Positions 2,742 through 24,501 of a stretch of 25,502 nucleotides of DNA are shown one piece after another. Source of the stretch: a virus; IMG/VR virus record IMGVR_UViG_3300031227_005097, positions 1 to 25,502 of that record; one strand, written 5' to 3'. The translations under genes were made by a program, and so were the position numbers. Each line of letters begins with the position of its first letter. Position 1 is the stretch's first letter. The notes below the pieces were generated by a model. It ran no database searches. It was not told the origin of the DNA and saw only the letters and a list, made by a program, of their open reading frames with translations.

Positions 2742-2781
2742 TTGTTCGCTCCTATTTACGGATGGTATTGATTACCAAGAA

Positions 2782-2818
2782 GGAGCCCCACCGAGACCCG
2801 CAAACTCAGTGGGGCTCC
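2782..2818 (-). terminator. Strong hairpin downstream of the capsid gene
   Basis: A perfect 10-bp stem (GGAGCCCCAC paired with GTGGGGCTCC) encloses a 17-nt loop in the gap between the capsid stop and the next gene. In the minus sense it is followed by TTCTTGG, not a clean U-run, so it may be a partial terminator, attenuator or mRNA-stabilising hairpin that lets the capsid gene be expressed above its downstream neighbours. Confidence 0.55.
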
Positions 2819-2839
2819 CGTTCCACCCATCACCGACCG

Positions 2840-4063
2840 TTAGCTAGTTGTGCCGTGGACGATTCCGCATTTTCGGCTGCTGGTACTGCGACCAACATAC
2901 TGGCTACGAATGTCAGGCACATGGCAAACCATGACTTTATAGTTGGTTTGCAATCCCCCCTTGGCGGGCCACTGAATTGTACGGATGTCCATGCCGTTGA
3001 TGGCCCGAACCGTTTCCCCAGTCATTTGAACCAAAACCAGAACGTCATCCGAAGTCATCAAATCGAGTTGCTGAACCCGAGTGATGCCCTCGATCATTTC
3101 AACACGCTGGCGAACCGTCTTGCTAGGTGCGGCAGCGCCCGACGAAGTGGTGACGTAATAATCGCGGTCCAGGTATTCCGCCCAATTCGAGGAATGGTAC
3201 AGCACCCAAGGCCCGTAGAATTTCTGGTCACGAGCCAACTGGCACATCGTGATAATCTCGGTAACGAACGTTTCCGGATCGAAACTGGCCGATGCCGTAA
3301 TATCCGTTTTGGTAATCCGATCCGGATGCGTCAGGAACCCGTAAATTCCGCGATTAGTAAATACCGATGACGAACCGATTTTGAGACCACTGTAGTCAAC
3401 AATTCCGATTGTCATGTTTTCAACTGCTTCCGCCACCCGTCGCGCGCACGCTTCGGCCATCGCCGTATCGAACGGTGTACCGCTGTTACGCGACTGGGCC
3501 AACTGTCGAGCGTCGAAATGGAAACCCGAGTGAGTGAACGGCAAGGGCAGAATGTCCGGCGAGAACAGCGGGGCATCTCCCTGCCCTTCGTCTACCGGCG
3601 ACATACTGACCATTGCGCTGCCGGGATCAACCATCGTATCCCGCACCAATCCAGTCACACCCATGGCATCGAATCCGCCGTAGGTATCGGCCGCACTGAT
3701 GTCCTTCCAAGCAACCAGTCGATCACGACTGGCCTTGATCACTGCTCGGTCGATGCGCTTCCACGTCTCGTGCGGCAAAGCGTCGGCATTGAAGACCGCC
3801 GGAACCGTACCATTGTTAATAAAGGTCTGGAGCTTGACAACCTCTCGTTCTGCTTCTTCCTCTTTAGTTCGCTCATTTACGACCATTTTGCCAGTTAGAA
3901 TATCCACGTAGCGCTGGCCATCGCCGTCGATCCAAGGACGCAACATCCCAGGATCAAACCGTACTGCGGCCATTTGCTGGCCGATTTCTCCCTCAGGTTT
4001 GAATTGACCACCACCTGAATTGATTACAAAATCGACTTGTGCTGAATCAACAAATCCAATCAT
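2840..4063 (-). CDS. Major capsid protein (HK97-fold, encapsulin-like subgroup)
   Basis: The 407-aa product has the length and block pattern of a major capsid protein related to the encapsulin/linocin-like branch of the HK97 fold. Key stretches are LPLPFTHSGFHFDARQLA, followed by SRNSGTPFDTAMAEACARRV in the backbone helix region, then a P-domain-like middle (FVTEIITMCQLARDQKFYGP) and a C-terminal strand region with VRAINGMDIRTIQW. The start at 4063 has AAGGAG 8 nt upstream. It lies downstream of the protease/scaffold and decoration candidate, and upstream of the adaptor genes, the canonical order. It should form the capsid shell, processed or guided by the upstream protease-scaffold. The capsid role is well supported; the exact family is from memory of motifs. 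Confidence 0.88.
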   Translation of the reverse strand: MIGFVDSAQVDFVINSGGGQFKPEGEIGQQMAAVRFDPGMLRPWIDGDGQRYVDILTGKMVVNERTKEEEAEREVVKLQTFINNGTVPAVFNADALPHETWKRIDRAVIKASRDRLVAWKDISAADTYGGFDAMGVTGLVRDTMVDPGSAMVSMSPVDEGQGDAPLFSPDILPLPFTHSGFHFDARQLAQSRNSGTPFDTAMAEACARRVAEAVENMTIGIVDYSGLKIGSSSVFTNRGIYGFLTHPDRITKTDITASASFDPETFVTEIITMCQLARDQKFYGPWVLYHSSNWAEYLDRDYYVTTSSGAAAPSKTVRQRVEMIEGITRVQQLDLMTSDDVLVLVQMTGETVRAINGMDIRTIQWPAKGGLQTNYKVMVCHVPDIRSQYVGRSTSSRKCGIVHGTTS

Positions 4064-4123
4064 GCCTAAATCTCCTTCACAAAGTATTGTTGTTAGTTGC
4101 TCACCTTTCGGTGTTGGTTTCAG

Positions 4124-4630
4124 TTAGCCCGCACCACCGGTAAACATGCACCATGCGTGCGTGTCTGCGGTTAGCCCGGCCACCGTTTCCAAAACAGTAA
4201 ACGGATGGGCTTCTGCGTTATCGTCGCAGGCCAACAGTTTTCCAGTCCCGTCGTCCAGCATCATTTCGTCTCCAATCGAAAACGAATCGCCGGTTCCAGG
4301 CTGGTTTTCGATGATCATGTTGAGTTCATCTCCCGGCAAGGGGAAGTACAACTCGCCATGGTCTTCGTCAGCGTAAGCATCGTTGTAGGTACTGCCGTCC
4401 TGCCACCGTTCCAGCAAGACCGCAATGATCTTTCGGTCGCCATCGCTCGCCACCCCTTGACCACTGGATGCTGCCGTAGTGCCGTAGGGTTGCCAGGTAA
4501 ATACACCCCCAACGGCTGCGACTTCATAATCTATTTCCATCACGGTGCCTGGTTTCGGCGTCCCATTGATCGTGCAGGGCTTTCGATAACCCTTGGGATT
4601 CTCCGTGACAATAATCTTAGTTCCCTTCAT
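4124..4630 (-). CDS. Capsid decoration/cement protein candidate
   Basis: This 168-aa, beta-rich and acidic protein lies directly upstream of the capsid gene. It begins MKGTKIIVTENPKG and contains PGTVMEIDYEV, GDELNMII and IGDEMMLDDGTGKLL, a pattern of short strands around a barrel like that of phage decoration or cement proteins. The ATG at 4630 is chosen because a GGAGG lies 8 nt upstream; upstream codons in the same frame would overlap that site and add no conserved-looking sequence. There is no signal or membrane segment. It may stabilise the mature capsid. The call depends on position and composition. Confidence 0.55.
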   Translation of the reverse strand: MKGTKIIVTENPKGYRKPCTINGTPKPGTVMEIDYEVAAVGGVFTWQPYGTTAASSGQGVASDGDRKIIAVLLERWQDGSTYNDAYADEDHGELYFPLPGDELNMIIENQPGTGDSFSIGDEMMLDDGTGKLLACDDNAEAHPFTVLETVAGLTADTHAWCMFTGGAG

Positions 4631-4692
4631 CTCATACGCCTCCGATATGTTTGAGTAATTGGTTAGCGTTCTTCGTGGCCTCTCGGCCAACC

Positions 4693-5256
4693 CTATCGGG
4701 CCATTTCAAATTCGTACTCCGCATTCGACGGAAGCGGTTTGGGTTTTAGTCCGCCCTTTGATCCGGGAGCAACAGCGCCTTGCCCAAAGAAGTTGGATAC
4801 CGGGGGCGCCTCAAGTTGCCGCCGTCTGGGAGGTGTCATCTTGGCCAACTGGGTCAGGTCGTCCATGCTCTTAGTCTTGAGGAATTCAATGAACTCCTTG
4901 TCGCTTTCACGACCAGTGTTTTCCACGATCTCTTCAATCATTCGTGCCGTTTGCCTCGCGCGCTCGTTGCGTGCAAACTGGAGGTCTTGGATTACGTTGT
5001 CCGGCGCACCTGCCAACCATTCCTCCTCGGTCTTGGGTTTGGCTTGAATGTTGGCTACCGGGTCTTTCTTCTTTTCCGGCTCCTTTTGGTTGGCAGTCAA
5101 CTTCTCGATTTTGGTATCGCGATCCTCGATCGTTCGGACCATATCGTACTGAAGCTGAAGCTGCTCATCGTCCCACTCGTTGACAGTCACCTCATCGCAG
5201 CGGTCACAATTTTCCACCACGTATGCAGCCATCTCTTCTCGTTGTTTTTCGTCCAT
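4693..5256 (-). CDS. Internal start: separate scaffold protein inside the protease gene
   Basis: An in-frame ATG at 5256 (MDEKQREEM) is preceded by a full AAGGAG with a 7-nt spacer, much stronger than the site at the start of the whole gene. Initiation here would make a 187-aa acidic, helix-rich protein equal to the C-terminal scaffold part, including TVNEWDDEQLQLQYD, a Lys-rich stretch and a Pro-rich tail. Lambda C and Nu3 show the same logic: a protease and a scaffold sharing one frame through an internal start. The independent product is inferred from the ribosome binding site only. Confidence 0.6.
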   Translation of the reverse strand: MDEKQREEMAAYVVENCDRCDEVTVNEWDDEQLQLQYDMVRTIEDRDTKIEKLTANQKEPEKKKDPVANIQAKPKTEEEWLAGAPDNVIQDLQFARNERARQTARMIEEIVENTGRESDKEFIEFLKTKSMDDLTQLAKMTPPRRRQLEAPPVSNFFGQGAVAPGSKGGLKPKPLPSNAEYEFEMAR

Positions 5257-7573: not shown

Positions 7574-7750
7574 CTAGAGCAAGGATTTCGGATCAAACCC
7601 CAGCATTGCAACGACATCAGCGGGACTGGTTTCCAACTCTTCGTCGTCCGGGTCGTCATCGGGCAAATCAGCTTCTCTCCAATCAATCGGCGTATCTTCA
7701 AACTCGCCAAAATGGATACTCGTGTCGGGTTTCCCGTGCATGAGGGCCAT
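7574..7750 (-). CDS. Small acidic protein of unknown function
   Basis: The 58-aa product (MALMHGKPD at its start) contains a strongly acidic middle (DLPDDDPDDEELE) and ends in a short helix, VVAMLGFDPKSLL. The ATG overlaps the TAA of the MuF gene as TAATG, so it is probably translationally coupled to that gene. A longer frame from an upstream GTG exists but the coupled start fits the style of the window. It could be an accessory to head assembly or a small DNA-mimic; nothing in the sequence decides this. Confidence 0.55.
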   Translation of the reverse strand: MALMHGKPDTSIHFGEFEDTPIDWREADLPDDDPDDEELETSPADVVAMLGFDPKSLL

Positions 7751-10700
7751 TATGATGCCGTCCTCCACCCACTAAATACAGCGGGGTCAATATAGGATTG
7801 TAATGCAACCGTTGGAGTGTTGCCTAACACCTGGGACACTTTAGTAGCTACACCGCGTACAGCCTTTTTATATTCTTTGGGATTTTGCGGCACTGGTGCC
7901 TTGGAAACCAAACCAATTGCCGTTGATGTGCCCTTGGCTGTTCTGAAATCCTTTGTCTTAAATCCTCCCCCGTCTTTCGTGTGCGCGTATTCCGACAATT
8001 TGGATTGACTCGTATTAAACAGATCGCCGCGAGAACCCACCGTTCGTTTTCTCGCCATAAGGTCTTTTGCAATTGTTTTGTCGTTGACTGGAATATCCAA
8101 ATTCACTCCCTTCTTGCCGGTAAACTGCAACCGCACTTTTTCCCCCTTAACAACCACATGCTTCCCTTGCAAAGTTACCCCACCGTAAGCCTGCTTTTCT
8201 GCCATAGTGTCTCGCCTTGAGCCGGGTCTAATGCCTGTCTCTTGGATCAGCCGTAGGCACGCTGCCTCTTCCCTGACTTCGGGTCTTTTCACATCTTGAT
8301 TCAACTCTTTGCGAATAGCCTTTCGCTTTTTTCGCAATTCGTTGTTTCGAGCGAACTTTGCTTTGGCCACCTTTATGCAATGTGCATCGCTGTAAACTCG
8401 TTGTGTCCGCCCCTTGCTATCAAGTCCCGTTACAAGTAATTCATCTTGTTTATTTGTTGAAACTTTTACCTGCTTCCACGCCGGAGGAATGTTCTTTGGT
8501 ACGTGCTCAGGTAATTCAAAACCGTCTTCCATCACCCACCGCTTGCCTTTGCGTTTCGCATTAGACATACCACCTCCACCGCCGCCTCCCCCTGAACCGA
8601 ATCTACCTCTACTGTCTCTCTGATAGGTTCGGTTATACACGTTTTCAGTGTTCAGTACGCTCTTGGGGCGTTTCTTGGATAGTTGCAGATCGGCACCGGC
8701 CCATTTGCTTAGCTTCTTTTGTTGGGCTAGGGTACGCTTGGTCGTTAGCTTCTTGGGAATCTCTGCCCGAATCGAACGGTCAATTGCCTGTTGTATCCGT
8801 TGCTTGCCACGCACTTGATCCTTTGTCGGTTCTCCCACGTTCGCTGGAATATACGAACAGCGGCACTGGGGATGAACTGGTATGAGCCCGTGCGCCTCTT
8901 TAACTTTCAATACGATACCTTCCAACGCAGCACACCGCGCACAACGACGACCGTCCGGTGTGCTACTGAACTCGACCATGACGCCGACTTTTTCCACGCC
9001 CATTTGCTCCAACGCATCCAATTGCCCTTCGGCATGCGCTCGTATGGTGTTCCCGGTGTACAATGAGTTTATGGTATAGTACCCATCAACAGTTTGGAGA
9101 TTGTAAACATGCCCGCTAAATGGTCTGATTTTCACCGTCAGTACATCGTCAACCTCTACTTGAGCGGTCTCACCCAACGGGAAGTGGCTGTCCGAGTCGG
9201 CTCCGACCAGAAGCGGGTCGGTAAAGTTTTGCGACAAGAGGGCGTTAGCCGATCTAACTCGGCCACACAAGTCCACTCGTGGAAGCGTGGTCGGATTGGC
9301 TACCAGTACCGAACCGACATCGACCTCAGCAGAATCAAGGAGAGATACGTTGCTGGAAAGTCGATTTGCTGGATTGCAACAAACCTCGGGATAGACCGGG
9401 GCGTCGTCAAACGCCGCCTCTTGGAGTTGGGAATTCCACTCAGAACCGCAGCGGAAGCATACTCTTTGATTGATAGGCAGCAGTCCGCCGCAGTCAGGGC
9501 AGAATCGAGAAGCCGCCTTACCGGATGGGGTGAAAACATTCTTCAAAGCTGGTTGGTTGAGAGGGGTGAATCTCCCGATACTCAGTTCCCTGTCGGGACG
9601 AAAAATATTGACATCGCTATTCACCCCGTCGCCGTGGAAGTCTGGCTTTCGGCATCGCACCCGTTCACCGACCCCTACTGCCGAAAGAGAATTGTATATC
9701 TCGCGAAGCGTGGTTGGGCTTCCTATTACGTCATCATTTCCCGTAGAACGAGAGTCTTGCTTCCAACCGTTGCAGATAAGCTTGTCACCTTTCTTCAGCG
9801 AGCCCGCAGAAACCCAGCCATCCTGCGTAAGCATCGGGTGATTCGGGGTTGCGGAGAATTTGCGGGAACCGCGAGTTACCACCTCAACCATTGGACCGCT
9901 GTAAGACCGTCGAAAGACTGCCCTTACCATAGCACTGTCAACAATGGTGTCTCCAGGTAGGCACTCTGTACGGGCGATTAGCTTTGCGCGGTTTTTACCG
10001 ATGCCATCTACCACCTTGGCCATGGAGCGAGCAATCGTCAAAGGGTTTTCGCCTCGCGTCAAACCGTCCACTAACTCCCGGCTCATGTGCGTGGCCATCA
10101 CGTCCGTAACATTCTTCAAATCAGTCAACGTTCTCGATGCCAACAACTGGACTTTCTCAATTGACTCCGGTTGAGAAAATGCACTACGCAAAAACTCTTC
10201 ACGGGTGCCTTGATAAAACGCCAACTGCTCTGCACCTCCGTGTAGCTGCGCGCGTGCTTGCACTCGCTGATCGTCAAACGCCCGTGCCGCTCCTTGTTGG
10301 TACCCTTTCTGAATGTACTTTAACAAGCCCTTGCCACTAGCGCCACCTTCGTCGTCTTCTTCGCCGATTATCTCTGTCTGAACTTGCCCATGCACCCATT
10401 GCAAAAACATAGCCAATTGTTTGGGCGCAGCGTGAAACTTCCAACGGGTGTTCTCTACCGCTTGATGTGGTTGGTTTAGGTTGTAATTCGCAATAATTTG
10501 CTCCAGGGCAAGAGCATTAACTGCGATTGGAGATTTATCCCGCAAACCAAAAGCGTCTTCGTCAACGATCAATTCGCGTACCGCCCGTTTGATTCGATTG
10601 AATCGTTTACTCAGCTCAACTTCAAACGCACTCCGCAACGTAGCGGTACGGGTGGGGTCCATACGCAGTGGATTCGGTGCGCGGCGTTTCGGTTTGCCGC

Positions 10701-10854
10701 TACTCTGTGCGTTTGCTGTCCAGCCCGTGGCGAGTATCGCTGCTTCTTGCGCCTTGGCTTTGGCCAGCGCGCCATAGCCGGTGTAGCACTTACCCGACTG
10801 GCCAAATTTGTAGCCCAATTTGCCACTAGTATTTTTGCACCGTTGAATAGGCAT
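7750..10854 (-). CDS. MuF-like head morphogenesis protein with intein and C-terminal topoisomerase IB
   Basis: The 1034-aa precursor has four parts. Residues 1-50 hold a small Cys-containing motif (KLGYKFGQSGKCYTG). Residues about 60-297 and 603-690 form the MuF head protein; removing the intein joins LIARTE to TIRAHAEGQLDALE, the usual MuF core, followed by CARCAALEG and HPQCRCSY. Residues 298-602 are the intein. After the linker (RDSRGRFGSG plus polyglycine, about 745-762), residues 763-1034 form a complete type IB topoisomerase domain with Arg876 in TGIRPGS, Lys914/915 in FTGKKG, Arg971 in KDFRT, Asn1012 in LGNTP (as in bacterial enzymes, where viral ones have His) and catalytic Tyr1021 in QSYIDP. 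MuF proteins enter the procapsid with the portal, so the topoisomerase may be packaged. The start follows the HTH gene stop by one base. Confidence 0.85.
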   Translation of the reverse strand: MPIQRCKNTSGKLGYKFGQSGKCYTGYGALAKAKAQEAAILATGWTANAQSSGKPKRRAPNPLRMDPTRTATLRSAFEVELSKRFNRIKRAVRELIVDEDAFGLRDKSPIAVNALALEQIIANYNLNQPHQAVENTRWKFHAAPKQLAMFLQWVHGQVQTEIIGEEDDEGGASGKGLLKYIQKGYQQGAARAFDDQRVQARAQLHGGAEQLAFYQGTREEFLRSAFSQPESIEKVQLLASRTLTDLKNVTDVMATHMSRELVDGLTRGENPLTIARSMAKVVDGIGKNRAKLIARTECLPGDTIVDSAMVRAVFRRSYSGPMVEVVTRGSRKFSATPNHPMLTQDGWVSAGSLKKGDKLICNGWKQDSRSTGNDDVIGSPTTLREIYNSLSAVGVGERVRCRKPDFHGDGVNSDVNIFRPDRELSIGRFTPLNQPALKNVFTPSGKAASRFCPDCGGLLPINQRVCFRCGSEWNSQLQEAAFDDAPVYPEVCCNPANRLSSNVSLLDSAEVDVGSVLVANPTTLPRVDLCGRVRSANALLSQNFTDPLLVGADSDSHFPLGETAQVEVDDVLTVKIRPFSGHVYNLQTVDGYYTINSLYTGNTIRAHAEGQLDALEQMGVEKVGVMVEFSSTPDGRRCARCAALEGIVLKVKEAHGLIPVHPQCRCSYIPANVGEPTKDQVRGKQRIQQAIDRSIRAEIPKKLTTKRTLAQQKKLSKWAGADLQLSKKRPKSVLNTENVYNRTYQRDSRGRFGSGGGGGGGGMSNAKRKGKRWVMEDGFELPEHVPKNIPPAWKQVKVSTNKQDELLVTGLDSKGRTQRVYSDAHCIKVAKAKFARNNELRKKRKAIRKELNQDVKRPEVREEAACLRLIQETGIRPGSRRDTMAEKQAYGGVTLQGKHVVVKGEKVRLQFTGKKGVNLDIPVNDKTIAKDLMARKRTVGSRGDLFNTSQSKLSEYAHTKDGGGFKTKDFRTAKGTSTAIGLVSKAPVPQNPKEYKKAVRGVATKVSQVLGNTPTVALQSYIDPAVFSGWRTAS
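8569..8622 (-). repeat. RFGSG-polyglycine linker cassette, copy before topoisomerase IB
   Basis: This encodes QRDSRGRFGS plus eight glycines, immediately before Met763 of the topoisomerase domain. The glycine codons form a GGAGG four bases before that ATG. Confidence 0.85.
9072..9080 (+). promoter_or_regulatory. Extended -10 promoter candidate for the antisense endonuclease
   Basis: TGGTATAGT is an extended -10 (TGN plus TATAGT, one mismatch from TATAAT), about 29 nt upstream of the ATG at 9109. No convincing -35 was seen at the usual spacing. It lies in the sequence encoding the intein C terminus. Confidence 0.4.
9109..9960 (+). CDS. Homing endonuclease, Vsr/EDxHD-like (PD-(D/E)XK) with two HTH motifs
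   Basis: The 283-aa product begins MPAKWSDF. Two helix-turn-helix segments come first (about residues 16-46 and 78-110, each ending in a KxLxxxG(V/I) turn), as expected for target recognition. The catalytic half has Glu142 in GWGENIL, Asp168 in NIDIAI, Glu177 in VAVEVW, His184 in SASHP and Asp188, the residue order of Vsr-related EDxHD homing nucleases in the PD-(D/E)XK superfamily. A GGAG lies 9 nt before the ATG. A TTG 15 nt upstream is less likely. The TAG stop abuts the Cys1 codon of the intein on the other strand, so the gene is contained in the intein with codons exactly back-to-back. It probably cuts intein-free MuF alleles to spread the intein. Family is moderate, gene reality high. 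Confidence 0.8.
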   Translation: MPAKWSDFHRQYIVNLYLSGLTQREVAVRVGSDQKRVGKVLRQEGVSRSNSATQVHSWKRGRIGYQYRTDIDLSRIKERYVAGKSICWIATNLGIDRGVVKRRLLELGIPLRTAAEAYSLIDRQQSAAVRAESRSRLTGWGENILQSWLVERGESPDTQFPVGTKNIDIAIHPVAVEVWLSASHPFTDPYCRKRIVYLAKRGWASYYVIISRRTRVLLPTVADKLVTFLQRARRNPAILRKHRVIRGCGEFAGTASYHLNHWTAVRPSKDCPYHSTVNNGVSR

Positions 10855-11193: not shown

Positions 11194-11355
11194 TCACTCT
11201 GGAGCCAATCTCAATTGGAATCCACCATCTTCAATTTCTTTTTGCCCTTTCCTGGCCTGTTCGATGAACTTCCGCTCTTCGTCGTCACTGGGATCAGGCT
11301 CTTCGCCCAATGCTAATCTACCGATAATGAAATTTGCTCGTTCTGCGGTGATCAT
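11194..11355 (-). CDS. Small 53-aa protein of unknown function
   Basis: The ATG at 11355 overlaps the TGA of the zeta-domain gene as ATGA. The product is charged and helical (MITAERANFIIGRLALG, then an acidic EEPDPSDDEE stretch, then a basic QARKGQKE). It fills an otherwise empty 150-nt gap and its stop is 8 nt before the next start. Small charged proteins next to zeta toxins can be antitoxins; the sequence shows no epsilon-like feature, so that is only a possibility. Confidence 0.55.
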   Translation of the reverse strand: MITAERANFIIGRLALGEEPDPSDDEERKFIEQARKGQKEIEDGGFQLRLAPE

Positions 11356-12023
11356 TTCTCTGTGCCCTTAGCTACGAATGAATTGTAAAGAGTTTGATTG
11401 TGAACGGTGAGAACAGTGCCTTTGGAACTAGCCATCAAAACAGGATTTCCTCTAGCTGTGGTATCGTAAAGTTTGGTGGTGTCGTAAAACCCTCTCTTAA
11501 CGGCTTCCGGATAAACTCTGGACACCGAAGCATGCACGTTGCTCACAAATGCCGGATTGACCAAAGTTCTATCGGGGTTTCTTTCAGCCCGTGCCCTGTT
11601 CCTTTCGTGCGCTACTTTTGTTGGTACACTAGCATAAACACCGTGAACTGGTTGACCCCCTTGTCGCATCATTTCGCACTTTCGGCCCAAACCCTCCACG
11701 GAACTATCACCCGTTCCGTCCAGCATCACATTGTAACCCCCTTTGGATGCTCGTGATGCAATTTCTTTCGACAGATAACTCGACTCTTCGTGAGCAAAGC
11801 TCGCAGCCTTTGGGTCGCCGGCAGCCATTTTGGCGTTGAACTCCGGCAAGGCTGCCTTGATTTTATCGCTATCCACCGTAACTAGGTTTTTGGGTATTTC
11901 TACATCGCCGCTTTTGATCAATGTGGACTTCCCCGATGCCGTACCTCCGCCCATCATTATAGCTTGGGGATTGTCTACGGGAGTGGCATCTTTGAGGTGG
12001 TCCTCAATAATAGCTTCGTGCAA
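11352..12023 (-). CDS. Zeta-type P-loop kinase/toxin domain, in frame with the portal
   Basis: A Walker A motif GGGTASGKSTL, an acidic VDSDKIKAALPEF, the HEESSYLSKEIA segment, VMLDGTGDSS and an Arg-rich RNRARAERNPDRT match zeta toxins, which phosphorylate UDP-N-acetyl sugars, and related kinases. A separate start would be the TTG at 12023 (AAGGA about 9 nt upstream). The same frame extends upstream through FKNPDGTWTKEREAL to the portal TAA at 12066-12068, with no other stop. So this is either a free protein, a recently split fusion, or the readthrough tail of the portal. The domain needs residues upstream of the TTG to look complete. Target and activity are unproven. Confidence 0.7.
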   Translation of the reverse strand: MHEAIIEDHLKDATPVDNPQAIMMGGGTASGKSTLIKSGDVEIPKNLVTVDSDKIKAALPEFNAKMAAGDPKAASFAHEESSYLSKEIASRASKGGYNVMLDGTGDSSVEGLGRKCEMMRQGGQPVHGVYASVPTKVAHERNRARAERNPDRTLVNPAFVSNVHASVSRVYPEAVKRGFYDTTKLYDTTARGNPVLMASSKGTVLTVHNQTLYNSFVAKGTEK

Positions 12024-14581: not shown

Positions 14582-16159
14582 TTAGCATGCAACTCCTGCT
14601 TGGGACTGGATTGTCCTTCGTTCCAGAGCGTACACACCCAGCAGCAATGCCTCCAATTCGTCCGGACTACAGCCCACCAACTCCGTAAGAGTCTGCCGCT
14701 TATCTTGCGCGTCTTTCCGTCGTTTAAGCGGCAATATCATCCGTCCCTTATCGTCGTACTGCAATGGAATGGGTGCCATCTGCCGCCGCAAGCTCGGCTC
14801 TCCCAACCGTCGAGGGCGATTGACTATTTCCGGAGGCAACGCGAACACGTTACCATAGGCCGGGTCCAACCTACGTCGCATCGTACCATACAACTCTGCC
14901 CTTCGGTTAGCATAAACTAGCCTATCCCCTTCTTCAGCAACACGCTGATCAAAGGTTTTCAATCCACGCTTCTTTTGAGGCAACACAGCTCCGCCAAAGT
15001 TCACCGTCTGCACTGCAAAATCCGCCCTGTGTAAATAGTCAGCGTGTTGCTGACCACCACCGCCCACATCGAGCAGCACTTTTTCGGGAGCGATTTTGTA
15101 CTCTCGCATCAATCGCACGGTTTCGTCAAAAATTTCGGCTGTGTCCACTGTCTTCTTACTAATTATTTTTAATAGTCCCAAGCGGTCGCACACTGCCCAC
15201 GCCGTATTGTCACCCCCGGCAGCGCTATCCAAACCAATCGACTCTGGCACGCGCCTTTGCCCCTCCAATTGACGTGCCATCCTTTCTGCCGCATCCAACC
15301 AATCCGGAGGATACAACAGCACCTCCGCACCGACGAAGAATTTGCCATCCAACGACACCGACTGCCGTATTTTGTCCCACAGTATCCGTTCCCGCTTGTA
15401 GTCTTCCCAACTCTTAACCCCTGGAGTTAGCGTCTCGTTTGTGACCTTAACTCCGGCAGCCAATTGGGCGCGCGCCAATTGCACGTTCTGACTGTCTTCG
15501 GCCGTAATTTTAATCACACGACGGTAGCAAATCTTGCCGTCTTTCGACATGATGGTGCCGCCGGGATCGTTGGTTTCAGGGTTGCCATCAACCGCCCGAC
15601 GAAAGAAATTAGCGCAAGGCCAGGGGTTCCCAAAGATCAACTTGCGCTTGGCCCATGTATCAGCCATCTTGTAATACTCATCCGGCACGCCGCTCGCCTC
15701 GTCAACAACAAACAGATTTCTAGGGGTGCCATCCGAACTATCGGCATGATGTCCTTGCATCGCTGCACCTTCCGCCGCTACCATTCCTTTAACATAACTC
15801 ATAGGGCACTCCACCCCATGCACTATTTTACGGATCGACCGATGCAGTACAACTAACGTCCCTCCCTTGCCCGCCTCTAGTGGGAATTTACTCGACGTGA
15901 TAGCTCTCTTAATCTCGTCCCAAAGCACAACCAAGTGGTCATCTTTAACGCTAGTGGTAATAATCCTACAAGGAGTACGCGTCAAAAAGAATAGCAACAC
16001 AACATGCGCCGCAACATAGTCCTTGCCCAACTCGTTACCGGCTACAACCACCGTTTCCAGATCGTCCCAGACCGACCGAAAGATATCCCGCTGCTGCCTA
16101 TAAAAGTTTGTGTCGGGCCACAGCATCTTAGCCAACTTCAGTGGATCAGCGTTTTTCAT
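14582..16159 (-). CDS. Terminase large subunit
   Basis: The 525-aa product has the ATPase-nuclease layout of packaging motors. VVVAGNELGKDY (residues 37-48, Lys46) is the variant Walker A, LFVVDEASG (Asp153-Glu154) is Walker B with the catalytic Glu, and KLIFGNP follows as the coupling motif. The RNase H-like nuclease starts with IGLDSAAGGDNTA (Asp311, Asp317) and continues with LLDVGGGG (Asp364). It would cut concatemeric DNA and drive it through the portal. The ATG overlaps the methyltransferase stop as ATGA. There is no insertion in this gene. Confidence 0.85.
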   Translation of the reverse strand: MKNADPLKLAKMLWPDTNFYRQQRDIFRSVWDDLETVVVAGNELGKDYVAAHVVLLFFLTRTPCRIITTSVKDDHLVVLWDEIKRAITSSKFPLEAGKGGTLVVLHRSIRKIVHGVECPMSYVKGMVAAEGAAMQGHHADSSDGTPRNLFVVDEASGVPDEYYKMADTWAKRKLIFGNPWPCANFFRRAVDGNPETNDPGGTIMSKDGKICYRRVIKITAEDSQNVQLARAQLAAGVKVTNETLTPGVKSWEDYKRERILWDKIRQSVSLDGKFFVGAEVLLYPPDWLDAAERMARQLEGQRRVPESIGLDSAAGGDNTAWAVCDRLGLLKIISKKTVDTAEIFDETVRLMREYKIAPEKVLLDVGGGGQQHADYLHRADFAVQTVNFGGAVLPQKKRGLKTFDQRVAEEGDRLVYANRRAELYGTMRRRLDPAYGNVFALPPEIVNRPRRLGEPSLRRQMAPIPLQYDDKGRMILPLKRRKDAQDKRQTLTELVGCSPDELEALLLGVYALERRTIQSQAGVAC

Positions 16160-17952
16160 GTAGTTGCTTTAAGCCTTTGCATTGCTGTAACAATGGTGTC
16201 CGTGTCTTGATCCATGCCCGTTGCGCGTATACCCAACTTTTTACACGCAACCAGTGTGCTTCCCGAACCACAAAACGGATCAACAATGTGATTCCTTTCG
16301 GGCATCGTTACCAATTTAACTAGGTATTCCATCAGTGCAAGCGGTTTAACAGTCGGATGTTTGTTTTCAACCTGCCCGCCCGCCGTGCGTTCTGGTTTGC
16401 TGGCTTTGGCACAATAGAAGAACCGGGCGGCGCTGCCGGAGTCACCGAAATGAACACCACTTTTTATGTTCTTTGCGATATGGCAAGGGTTATCGTTATT
16501 GCTTTCCTCAAAGTTATAGCCACTTGCCGATCCCTTCTTGCTCTCCGGAAACAGCCCTACCACTTCGTCTTTTCCAGGGTTGGGCAACAGGTTTCCGGCA
16601 TCGTCGTACTCATCTTCTGGATAAGACAGAATCAGATTGGCAGGCCAGCGGCCTTGGGTTTCACGTCCCCCTGTTTCCTCGCCTTGAACTTGTCCATATA
16701 TCTCATTGCTCGATGCACTACTGTTAAACCTTTTCTCCGTCCCCACCCTACACCCATCCACGTTAATCCCCGCCACGCCATGCTCAAGCGCGTTGGCAGC
16801 GAACGTGCCGTCAAGCGGTTTCATGGCTAGGATGATGGGCTCCCAATTAGGAGCCAGTCCTAGATCGTCCGGAGGTAAGGTGTGCCCCTTTGATATAGCA
16901 CTTCCGAGAACAGAAAGCTCTCGGGTGCTGCTTATGTTGAGACAGACGGCGTTCAAATACCTTGCCGCAGGTTCGGCATTTAACCTTGATCCAGGTGCTT
17001 GCAATTCGGCCTTGATGATGGAGTGCGGCGTGAGAACCGACAGACAAGAGTTTAAGGTTTTCCAGTCGATTGTCTGCTCGGTCTTCGTTGATGTGGTGGA
17101 CATTTTCGCTAGTTCGCAACTTGCGTCCAAGATGCTTCGCCATGATGACACGGTGCTCAAGCTGGAAATTATCGCCGACACGAATTGCAATGTATCCGTC
17201 TGAGCGGACAAAGCATCCCGTAAACTGGACCTTTCGTCGGCACTCCATTGAGCAGAAGCGGCAGCCGCGTCTTGCTCGGCTTGGCTTAACCCGAAACTCC
17301 TTTTTGCAACACTCGCAGGTAATAACGACCATAACTTAGCCTCCAGGGTTAATAGGTTCTCAACTATTATACCCCGTTCCGTTTCTGCTGTCAACGGTTT
17401 TCGAGCACATACAATAATTTCATGGGCCGGCTTCAGCGCAGTCCCCCAGCCGTCCCAGAGTTTGGCGGCTTCGGTGGCGGGGGCTGTGATCTTACATTCT
17501 TCCACACCATCGCCATTCCCACCAAAGCCACCACCGTAACACACCGCGCCCTGGCCCATGGTTTTGCTATAGCCAGGCTGCCCAGCCTTACTGCCCACAA
17601 CTTCCCGCTCGGCCCCCGCCGCCTTGTCGATCGCCTTGCTGATGTTGTGCGACTTGGGAAACCCGCTCCCATAAACCCACATCAGGCAATCGCGAATCTC
17701 CCACCCGGCGTCCTCAATGGCACACATCAAGTGGTGGTGAGTTCGGGTCCCGCCAAACGCCAACAACATTGCGCCGGGAAAACAAGCATCACGTATCGCT
17801 TCCCAAAACGGCACGCCCGGTACGCCATGATCCCACCCCCACCCCATAAATTTCAGACCGTATGGCGGGTCAGTAACGCAAGCCGTGTACGTTGGTTCTT
17901 TCGGTAGCAAATCCAAACAGTCCCCACGCAATAACTTTATGCGATGTTTCAT
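16156..17952 (-). CDS. DNA adenine/cytosine-N4 methyltransferase with a 193-residue in-frame insertion
   Basis: The 598-aa product has DPPY at residues 28-31 (catalytic motif IV) near the N terminus and [13 protein letters not shown] followed by DPFCGSGST (SAM-binding motif I) near the C terminus, the beta-type order of amino-methyltransferases. Without the insertion it would be about 405 residues, a normal length. Residues about 186-378 are a Ser/Leu-rich stretch with no methyltransferase motif, encoded by the same DNA as the HNH gene in another frame. The core resumes as [15 protein letters not shown]. It would protect phage DNA from host restriction. It is coupled upstream to a small membrane protein and downstream to terminase (ATGA at both ends). 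Whether the enzyme still works with the insertion is unknown. Confidence 0.85.
16847..17332 (-). CDS. HNH homing endonuclease with two zinc fingers, overprinted on the methyltransferase
   Basis: The 161-aa product starts with a Cys cluster ([10 protein letters not shown], then CRFCSMEC), has an HNH core with [15 protein letters not shown] (His60), [13 protein letters not shown] (His79, His80, Asn82) and LENLKLLS, and ends with a second zinc finger (CRTCGKVF, then FCSRKC). The HNH_3 type is common in phage homing endonucleases. The ATG at 17332 has GGAGG with a 7-nt spacer and a consensus promoter upstream. The stop TAA falls in the right-hand copy of the flanking motif. It lies on the same strand as the methyltransferase but in a different frame, so both can be translated from one DNA stretch. 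Confidence 0.85.
17366..17394 (-). promoter_or_regulatory. Perfect consensus sigma70 promoter for the HNH gene
   Basis: TTGACA (17389-17394) and TATAAT (17366-17371) are separated by exactly 17 nt, all 12 key bases at consensus, 34 nt upstream of the HNH start codon. The same bases encode [11 protein letters not shown] of the methyltransferase frame. Confidence 0.85.
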
Positions 17953-22071: not shown

Positions 22072-24501
22072 CTAGGCATCTGGTTCTACCACGTCTTTAT
22101 ACAATTGGTGCATACGGGTTGTTAATCTCCACCGTGCCTTGCTTGTGATCCCTTTGGCCTTTGCGCTAAACAGTTCCACTACCCCGATCTGTTTTAGGAA
22201 CCGCAACATACCGCGTGTTTTCTCTTCCGTGCGGTTAGTGAATAGACTCAATCCCCGCACTTCTCTTCCATCGCGGCCGGCAGTATACAAATGTGCCGCA
22301 ATATCCAACGTCTGTCCACGGCTGGTATCCATCGCCACTTGCGTAGTGCGTCGCATCACTTCTTGATTTATCTGGTCGCAATTTAACACCAACGCCAAAC
22401 ATGCGGCCAATCGTACATGCTGGCTTACCAACCGGGCACCAAATTCACGTTCAGCGTTTTCTTCCTGGTGTTGGCTGGGTCTTGCTCGCATATGCGCAAC
22501 AAACTTTCCCAATTTGGTGCATTGTCGCATCGCCCACGGTGGGTAATCAATTGTCGATAGCTTACCAATGGCGTTCTCCCGCAAGTATGCAACGTAACCC
22601 CCGGTTAGTTGCATCGCTTTAGCCAGTTCTGGTTCGTATTGAGTTTCGGCTTTACCGTCGGACTCGTACACCAAATTGCGACTCGCACGGTTCGCCACTC
22701 GCCACAGCACCTCGTCCTCCAACTCATCATCAATACCATCCATAATAACACAGTCCAAGAAACGCTCGCCCAACTCGCTGCTATCAATTGCTCTCAACGA
22801 ACTCGTACCACACAGCAACCACGTCATCCGAATTCCACTGTAATCCTTGCTCATTGCGTTACGGTAGTGGGTGCGGCAGGTGCTATCGTACAAGTCTCGC
22901 GCCTCTGCTAAAATCTGCGACAAGTTGGGACTTTGCAATAGCGTATCGCCATCTTTTGTCACGAGCGTCTTATCTCGAATTGTCGGAATTAAACTGTGGT
23001 CCTGTTCTTCATCGCCACCATCCGACTTATACCCACTGTGGAATCCCCGGATCGTACTTTTTGCAACCACGTACTCCCGATTAACACTGATCGCCTCACA
23101 TAGAGTCGATTTTCCGCAGTTGTGATGAAACACACCATTCGCCCAATAGTTCTGCGTCTCCGGTACATGGAAATCGTAATAGGGCTTTTCACCGCAAGCC
23201 TTTACAGAGATAACCTTATCTGTTAGAGTAATAGGGCCGTACCGTTTACTTTCCCTAAAAATTGGAGTATGCCATGAAACCATGGAGCCAGAAAAAGATC
23301 GACCTGTGCGTACACCTCTATTCACAGGGATTTTCTCAAGACCAGGTTGCAAAGGAGTTGAAGGCCGGACAGGCCCATGTGTGCAAAATTCTGAAACAGC
23401 AAGGGATTGCTTGTCGGTTTGCCCCTTGGACGAAAAAGCGAATCCAGCGGATGGTTGGCTTCTATCGATCTGGATTGTCTGTGGCAAAGACAGCACAGAA
23501 GATGCACGCAAACCGCCACACCGTCCGTAAGTATCTTCAACAGACCGGAATTCCGATTCTGTTCTACTTCGAGGCAACCGGCAAGGTAGAACAGAATCCA
23601 AACTGGAAGGGTGGACGCCATGTTGGTGAGTATGTCTACGTCCGCTATCCAGACCATCCACACTGTAAGCGGTGCGGTTACATCCTAGAACACCGCTTAG
23701 TAATGGAAAAGCATCTTGGAAGACACCTCCGCCCTGGGGAAGTAGTTCACCATTGTAATGGGAAGAAGCATGACAACCGCATTGATAACCTCGAACTCTT
23801 TGCGACGAACGGGGAGCATCTTGCTGCCGAGCTAAAAGGCCGCTGCCCGAAATGGACGGAAGACGGTAGAAAGCGAATTGCCGCAGCGCATCGCAAATGG
23901 TGCCGACAGCAACGTAAGAAGAGCCGTTCCAAAAGCGGTGGCCGCCGGTAACTCGAATGCTCCTGCCGGATGCAAACACCACATCGTACATCAGTGCGGG
24001 TTTATACCTTTGCGGCGGCATTGCTTGGGTAATACCTATCTCTCCCTTAAATTGCGTGTAGACAAAAAATTTCTTACCATCTTTCCACCGCTCTGCAACT
24101 GTTTTTGTACTCCCATTCGTAGGGTCATGGATTGGGATATCCCCATCCAAACAAGCCGCTGGTCCAATCACTTTGATCCATAACTGGTCGCCGACGCTCT
24201 TTGTGGATGCAACCGATGCCAACATGACACTCAATGCGTGATCCAATCCCGGCGTCCATTTCAGTGCTTTGCGCCACGCCGTAACCAACGTTCGGTACTC
24301 CCGGCAGTCCACACATTCCATATACGCCTCGCCGTTGCTACTCGTAGATTTATCGGACACAGGGGCGTCCCCGTTTAGCCACTCTTTAGGTATAGGAGAT
24401 AAATACCGCAATAGCCTCTCCAATCCCTCCAGGCGACCGCACAGAGGCTTCTGTGGGCTTGCTACAGCGGGCAATCGAACCGCTTCAGACAACTTTGGCA
24501 A
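22072..24501 (-). CDS. P-loop ATPase (replication-associated) with intein in Walker A
   Basis: The 809-aa precursor gives a 464-aa ATPase after removal of residues 117-461. The exteins join GPAA to CGKSTL, restoring a perfect Walker A (GPAACGKST). Downstream are SGYKSDGGDEEQDHSL, TLVTKDGDTLLQSPN, then RMTWLLCGTSSLRAID (likely strand 4 and sensor) and ELGERFLDCVIMD (possible arginine finger region), all typical of an AAA+-like phage ATPase. The C-terminal end has a winged-helix-like pattern (EEKTRGMLRFLKQIGVVEL). It follows the primase gene, so a replicative helicase or helicase-loader role is likely. It starts with TTG, with GAGGA 7 nt upstream. The ATPase call is firm; the exact role is inferred. 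Confidence 0.75.
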   Translation of the reverse strand: MPKLSEAVRLPAVASPQKPLCGRLEGLERLLRYLSPIPKEWLNGDAPVSDKSTSSNGEAYMECVDCREYRTLVTAWRKALKWTPGLDHALSVMLASVASTKSVGDQLWIKVIGPAACLDGDIPIHDPTNGSTKTVAERWKDGKKFFVYTQFKGEIGITQAMPPQRYKPALMYDVVFASGRSIRVTGGHRFWNGSSYVAVGTICDALRQFAFYRLPSISGSGLLARQQDAPRSSQRVRGYQCGCHASSHYNGELLPQGGGVFQDAFPLLSGVLGCNRTAYSVDGLDSGRRHTHQHGVHPSSLDSVLPCRLPRSRTESEFRSVEDTYGRCGGLRASSVLSLPQTIQIDRSQPSAGFAFSSKGQTDKQSLAVSEFCTHGPVRPSTPLQPGLEKIPVNRGVRTGRSFSGSMVSWHTPIFRESKRYGPITLTDKVISVKACGEKPYYDFHVPETQNYWANGVFHHNCGKSTLCEAISVNREYVVAKSTIRGFHSGYKSDGGDEEQDHSLIPTIRDKTLVTKDGDTLLQSPNLSQILAEARDLYDSTCRTHYRNAMSKDYSGIRMTWLLCGTSSLRAIDSSELGERFLDCVIMDGIDDELEDEVLWRVANRASRNLVYESDGKAETQYEPELAKAMQLTGGYVAYLRENAIGKLSTIDYPPWAMRQCTKLGKFVAHMRARPSQHQEENAEREFGARLVSQHVRLAACLALVLNCDQINQEVMRRTTQVAMDTSRGQTLDIAAHLYTAGRDGREVRGLSLFTNRTEEKTRGMLRFLKQIGVVELFSAKAKGITSKARWRLTTRMHQLYKDVVEPDA
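23201..23229 (+). promoter_or_regulatory. Promoter candidate for the antisense HNH gene
   Basis: TTTACA (23201-23206, 5/6) and TAGAGT (23224-23229, 4/6) are 17 nt apart, 44 nt upstream of the start codon. It lies in the DNA encoding the intein C-terminal splicing domain on the other strand. Confidence 0.4.
23274..23951 (+). CDS. HNH homing endonuclease with two HTH motifs, antisense within an intein
   Basis: The 225-aa product starts MKPWSQKKID. Two helix-turn-helix units come first (about residues 12-45, ending CKILKQQGI; and 60-94, ending RKYLQQTGI). The HNH_3 domain follows: CKRCGYILEHRLVMEKHLG (His140), then GEVVHHCNGKKHDNR (His159, His160, Asn162), then IDNLELFATNGEHLA. A basic tail (RQQRKKSRSKSGGRR) ends the protein. 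The ATG at 23274 has GGAG with a 6-nt spacer; a TTG 12 nt upstream is less likely. The gene is on the opposite strand to the ATPase and wholly inside its intein. It would cut intein-free alleles at the P-loop codons. Confidence 0.88.
   Translation: MKPWSQKKIDLCVHLYSQGFSQDQVAKELKAGQAHVCKILKQQGIACRFAPWTKKRIQRMVGFYRSGLSVAKTAQKMHANRHTVRKYLQQTGIPILFYFEATGKVEQNPNWKGGRHVGEYVYVRYPDHPHCKRCGYILEHRLVMEKHLGRHLRPGEVVHHCNGKKHDNRIDNLELFATNGEHLAAELKGRCPKWTEDGRKRIAAAHRKWCRQQRKKSRSKSGGRR

Follow-up and report, generated by a model that had tools for sequence, protein, structure and literature searches.

A phage MuF intein carrying a putative homing endonuclease gene on its complementary strand

The window, by which we mean the whole stretch of viral DNA analysed here, is 25,502 bases long and corresponds to the full virus record, which is probably a genome fragment. 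Its structural genes lie on the minus strand. The gene 7750-10854 (minus strand) encodes a MuF-like minor head protein of phage head morphogenesis (Pfam Phage_Mu_F 5.5e-11; phrog_758 head morphogenesis 4e-29). The head protein bears a C-terminal fusion to a type IB topoisomerase-like catalytic-core domain (7750-8400, minus strand, residues ~831-1017; Pfam Topoisom_I 7.3e-18). Another minus-strand ORF, 11352-12023, has a match to part of a minor head protein family of 1440 residues (phrog_16619), besides a weak one to a family of polynucleotide kinases.

The MuF gene is interrupted at ARTE/T by an intein of 305 residues (CLPGDT...LYTGN; 9049-9963, minus strand; intein_Nterm TIGR01445 4.8e-5; Pfam Intein_splicing 2.8e-6). 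The boundaries were set from alignment A2 and the insertion contexts, and they agree with the coordinates and the length proposed in an earlier note on this DNA. The N-terminal splicing half of the Hint domain (9769-9963, minus strand; profile match 1e-35; pLDDT 77-93 for residues 1-60) contains Cys1 and the block B motif TPNH. The C-terminal half (9049-9156, minus strand; profile match 5e-19; pLDDT 78-94 for residues 271-305) contains block F, GHVYNL, and block G, which ends in YTGN and is followed by Thr at +1. Cys1, the nucleophile of Class 1 inteins, is invariant in alignment A2, as are T39, N41, and H42 of block B (T39-P-N-H42). The intein terminates with N305. In this subgroup the penultimate residue is Gly, thus the intein ends with Gly-Asn instead of the usual His-Asn.

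In the AF2 model the ends of the intein adopt the Hint fold and match the Mtu RecA, DnaB, and RadA inteins (Foldseek probability 1.0). Confidence is mostly good at residues 1-66 and 267-305 (pLDDT 69-94), whereas over most of the middle part the pLDDT is 25-50 and no confident fold appears in the sense frame. Hence, most of the middle is what results when the complement of another gene is translated. Cysteines resembling a zinc ribbon in this part (DZR 0.019) are not conserved among the relatives; presumably they arise incidentally from Ala codons of the opposite strand.

The opposite strand of the intein carries a putative homing endonuclease gene of 283 aa, which starts with ATG (9109-9960, plus strand); counted from an upstream TTG at 9094, the ORF would encode 288 aa. 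It overlaps 283 of the 305 intein codons, and its stop codon lies over the intein as well. Position 1 of the intein codon is opposite position 3 of the endonuclease codon, which confirms the back-to-back phase described earlier. The stop codon TAG faces CTA (Leu) of CLPGD, and the ATG faces CAT (His) of block F. A Shine-Dalgarno-like GGAG (9096-9099, plus strand) is located 9 nt upstream of the ATG, on the complement of the block F codons, so that the view of a 283-aa plus-strand gene with its own ribosome-binding site holds. The earlier placement of the gene inside the intein needs one correction: the overlap is there, however, the gene is not confined to the middle and spans the region from block F almost to Cys1.

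These start signals recur in the relatives. Among the 93 inteins with a recognisable block F, the complement of its His is a start codon in 92 (ATG in 78 and GTG in 14), and in 82 of these 92 a Shine-Dalgarno-like sequence is found at suitable spacing. Thus, the site at which translation of the endonuclease begins lies on the complementary strand of a conserved splicing motif. A search for a sigma-70-like promoter upstream of the plus-strand gene and for a terminator found neither. Of the records examined, only that of Salmonella phage PK2 has the whole antisense ORF annotated, as the hypothetical protein XRA40007.1 (1319-2128, minus strand, of our locus L196); the others lack this annotation.

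The plus-strand protein is modelled with a pLDDT of 82.6 (AF2, alignment A1) as two helix-turn-helix regions and an alpha/beta core. The predicted DNA-binding repeats (residues ~7-106; 9127-9426, plus strand) coincide with AF2 helices and with matches to HTH_38 (3.3e-4) and HTH_58 (4.7e-4), both under the curated cut-offs; these weak matches are all that Pfam and PHROGs give, with none to the nuclease part. The predicted nuclease core, delimited with alignment A1, extends from E142 to E177 (9532-9639, plus strand). VIA-align superimposes the model on Vsr (1cw0) with a Z-score of 10.1 over 109 residues at 2.6 A, and on I-Bth0305I with a Z-score of 8.9. In Foldseek, the catalytic domain of I-Bth0305I provides the best two matches, which are two of its chains; the first-ranked one has a probability of 0.97 and a weak E-value of 0.04. 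In the 14 sequences of alignment A1, E142, Q159, and E177 do not vary and D168 hardly does; the assignment is by alignment and does not pick out the H-D part of the EDxHD motif. By its model, the protein has a fold of the Vsr/EDxHD type, and the predicted fold fits the earlier proposal that the plus-strand gene encodes an endonuclease.

A genome scan had subset A3 of alignment A1 as its query. More than 560 related inteins are present in IMG/VR, of which 80 loci were taken per scan; this gave 105 distinct inteins, 78 mainly through the endonuclease scan and 27 through the intein scan. In all 105 the antisense frame is open in the same phase for ~235-360 codons, whereas a stop mostly ends each of the remaining two antisense frames after 20-150 codons, occasionally after up to ~225. 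The earlier note had named inteins that are intact while the plus-strand frame is often broken as the case against it; there are none among the 105 inteins and the 12 Guernseyvirinae phage inteins. The endonuclease is inside an intein at each of the 80 viral loci of the endonuclease scan, with no free-standing copy among them. A Tsukamurella genome also has a relative of the endonuclease, which is outside the final intein set. In almost all close viral relatives, similarity is higher for the antisense protein than for the intein (56% vs 46% at L002, 49% vs 42% at L005, and 44% vs 34% at L001). Judged from sequence, the arrangement is conserved in more than 100 other phage inserts, and it is also found in Gordonia phages, which are actinobacteriophages. 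Two MuF genes carry two inteins each, at different sites and each with an antisense endonuclease (2750-3841 and 4028-4840 at L007; 3001-4068 and 4297-5262 at L012).

In its middle part, the main demand on the intein frame is that no stop codon interrupts it, and TTA, CTA, and TCA are therefore forbidden in the endonuclease. None of these three occurs among the 22 Leu and 23 Ser codons of the gene, as had been noted earlier, although 7.4 would be expected from the codon usage of the minus-strand genes of the phage; the avoidance is significant (p = 2.6e-4). Conversely, 11.2 antisense stops would be expected in the intein frame of the window from extein codon usage, and none occurs (p = 3e-6). 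Over the endonuclease span of the first 78 inteins (~23,000 codons) the same calculation gives ~457 expected antisense stops, against none observed.

Selection is distributed unevenly between the two frames. In 34 close inteins the codon-position entropy switches at the Hint boundaries. Opposite endonuclease residues 16-225 antisense position 3 is generally the most variable one and the antisense protein varies less than the sense one, whereas opposite the Hint halves the order is reversed and the intein frame is the constrained one. The codon-level dN/dS comparison of both frames proposed earlier gives the same picture, with the middle constrained in the antisense frame and the ends in the intein frame. 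For the intein middle of Salmonella phages of ~95% identity, the antisense dN/dS is ~0.05-0.15 in most comparisons and the intein frame is little constrained. Between S55 and BPS11T2 the changes in the middle at endonuclease positions 1, 2, and 3 number 4, 1, and 19, and the dN/dS values there are 0.010/0.184 (endonuclease) and 0.055/0.026 (intein frame). Summed over non-independent pairs of Guernseyvirinae, the changes at these positions are 1055, 492, and 2168 in the middle, 574, 224, and 428 in the N half of Hint, and 216, 20, and 31 in its C half. The similarities, the open frames, the missing stops, the entropy, and the substitutions all point the same way, to a real plus-strand protein.

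The view of the intein middle as an antisense translation product thus stands for most of its length, which is mostly complement, but one motif has extra constraint. DFHGDG (9625-9642, minus strand) is the one sense motif that is nearly invariant outside the splicing blocks; it lies opposite the core strand PVAVEV of the endonuclease, its codons are fixed, and both frames are constrained there. The endonuclease codons at this place are GAA in 91/94, GCC in 94/94, and GTG in 88/94 sequences, while elsewhere in the same regions GAA makes up 52% of Glu, GCC 40% of Ala, and GTG 18% of Val codons. Since this choice goes beyond the endonuclease sequence alone, selection must act either on some function of the sense peptide or directly on the DNA sequence.

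The relatives in Salmonella phages, rather than the virus of the window, provide the evidence of mobility. With the MuF gene of S55 as a query, 364 phage records were matched, 58 of them over >=80% of the query, which means that the intein is present. Most of the others, in the listed sample, match in two pieces over ~50-57% and have no intein. Exact intein-free alleles, with the junction PAHPN/CRST, are those of MA12 and wksl3. At the same time, an 816-nt intein is identical in the four phages sam, F12013, demigod, and dunkel, despite the N-exteins of sam and dunkel being 70.9% identical. Intein-free alleles together with identical inteins in MuF genes that are ~71% alike indicate that the element moves. 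There are two main insertion sites in MuF, ARTE/T and HPN/CRC, and some inteins are found in other contexts.

The window contains a second intein of this kind, in a P-loop ATPase/helicase-like gene (22072-24501, minus strand). The intein (23119-24153, minus strand; GPAA/...HHN/CGKST; Pfam Intein_splicing 8.6e-6) is 345 aa long, and its opposite strand encodes a 225-aa HNH endonuclease with a helix-turn-helix (23274-23951, plus strand; HNH_3 8.2e-10 and HTH_23 1.4e-8, over the cut-offs). Unlike in the MuF intein, position 1 lies here over position 1. Ten such HNH proteins used as queries gave 570 relatives, of which 80 were taken. The gene is antisense between Hint halves at 66 of the 69 distinct loci; of the other three, two belong to truncated contigs, which leaves L224 as an apparent exception. 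The 66 loci with a long opposite ORF are all in one phase, and in 133 of 159 columns variability is greatest at position 3 of the HNH frame. By their sequences, genes for large terminases, clamp-loader subunits, and helicases seem to be among the hosts. As the two nucleases are unrelated and differ in phase, the arrangement would have arisen at least twice. A near-identical virus (L015) has the second intein too; its record is without a match to the MuF gene and hence gives no empty site.

In summary of the mechanism, we suggest that the insert is very probably a mobile intein with its homing endonuclease encoded by a gene apart, on the other strand. Translation from the minus strand would give the MuF precursor, out of which the insert would be spliced by the Hint halves at its two ends. 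Antisense transcription of the plus strand would yield the 283-residue protein from its own start and ribosome-binding site, with helix-turn-helix repeats for DNA binding and a predicted EDxHD (Vsr-like) nuclease domain. This nuclease may cut intein-free MuF at or near ARTE/T, and the repair would copy the intein in. The splicing frame would thus keep MuF functional while the antisense nuclease spreads the insert. The DNA is shared as a mosaic, with the ends held by the splicing frame and the middle being mostly a passive complement of the endonuclease. We also find it reasonably probable that encoding the endonuclease antisense is a general design among phage inteins, which arose at least twice (EDxHD in phase 1-over-3, HNH in phase 1-over-1), is old enough to span phages of Actinobacteria and Proteobacteria, and has in the DFHGDG/PVAVEV core a region selected on both strands at once.

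Other readings of the locus have to be considered. The antisense ORF might be a non-coding statistical shadow of the intein codon bias, since the phase 1-over-3 tends to give long antisense ORFs where TTA, CTA, and TCA are avoided, and the extein rate of these codons is just 1.5%. However, the GC content of the window is 51% and the openness by chance has p = 3e-6; moreover, the antisense protein is better conserved than the intein and is modelled with a nuclease fold, and synonymous changes cluster at antisense position 3. We rejected this reading on the codon usage, the codon-position counts, and the dN/dS pattern and regard it as extremely improbable. Only slightly more credence can be given to an insert that no longer splices, i.e. 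an out-of-frame endonuclease insertion tolerated by the host protein in the manner of ShiLan elements; this would agree with the lack of a predicted fold in the intein middle and with the ShiLan-like insert in the methylase of the window. Against it, both Hint halves are confidently modelled and match solved inteins, among the conserved residues are Cys1, the T..H of block B, and the C-terminal Asn, and the intein frame is constrained exactly at the Hint halves.

The plus-strand protein might also be real without being a homing enzyme, for instance a regulator, or a nuclease against competitor phages, that shelters in the intein. Helix-turn-helix repeats are regulator-like, and nucleases of the Vsr fold have other roles, too. 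Nevertheless, we think this unlikely, because the location inside inteins at 80/80 viral loci of the endonuclease scan ties the protein to the spread of the intein, the nearest homing protein by structure, I-Bth0305I, is itself a homing enzyme, and the insert acts as a mobile unit in Salmonella phages. Hence, we retain the mobile intein with an opposite-strand endonuclease as the preferred reading.

The MuF intein resembles canonical ones such as PI-SceI and the archaeal VMA inteins (PMC8966425) in that the Hint domain is interrupted by an endonuclease region, the insertion lies in a conserved region of the host gene, and the insert is present in some relatives and absent from others. However, the canonical endonuclease is translated within the intein as a domain of the same polypeptide, often of the LAGLIDADG type, while here the nuclease frame is a separate gene on the opposite strand with its own start. 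I-Bth0305I and other EDxHD (Vsr-like) homing endonucleases (PDB 3r3p; PMC3943268) share the predicted catalytic fold and have extra DNA-binding modules as well. The EDxHD enzymes described are intron-encoded or free-standing; here the gene is antisense within an intein at every sampled locus. Dassa et al. 2009 reportedly placed EDxHD-type endonucleases between split-intein genes.

The ShiLan domain (PMC11855218) is similar in hiding an endonuclease in another frame and leaving the host ORF open, but it is on the strand of the host gene and has no splicing domains, in contrast to the opposite strand and the Hint halves of the MuF intein. Antisense homing endonuclease genes occur in nuclear group I introns, and one such enzyme, I-DsqI, is active (PMC9548176). 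I-DsqI is likewise expressed opposite to its host gene; for the MuF intein we infer such expression. Unlike the MuF intein, the group I antisense genes show no codon-over-codon double coding, as the host is an RNA intron and its complement need not be a readable protein. Inteins in MuF of Guernseyvirinae are known from E. coli phage Snoke (PMC6776784) and Jersey-like phages (PMC8425127), being present or absent between phages; they are relatives of the intein of the window, and these two papers describe no endonuclease in them. Actinobacteriophage inteins with a 'non-canonical architecture' are the subject of a preprint, as cited in PMC11855218. Apart from this preprint, which our literature search did not cover, we found no published antisense endonuclease inside an intein.

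The arrangement would part the two halves of a selfish element, with splicing and mobility placed on opposite strands and thus separately regulable. At the same time, the two genes are locked together, since nearly every mutation touches both. We note that this is among the clearest cases of long and ancient opposite-strand double coding, and its 105 and 66 distinct loci serve as natural replicates in which the sharing of one DNA by two proteins can be measured. Many phage endonuclease genes appear to be missing from annotation, including those of widely used Salmonella phages, and the existing phages with and without the intein make homing testable.

Last, a third out-of-frame endonuclease is present in the window. 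It is an HNH protein of 161 aa with Cys-pair motifs (16847-17332, minus strand; HNH_3 4.5e-9), located within the DNA methylase ORF 16156-17952 on the same strand and in a different frame, and the insert is flanked by [11 protein letters not shown] and [12 protein letters not shown]. Same-strand, out-of-frame HNH genes occur in phage DNA methylases (PMC11855218), and this insert looks like the ShiLan element described there.
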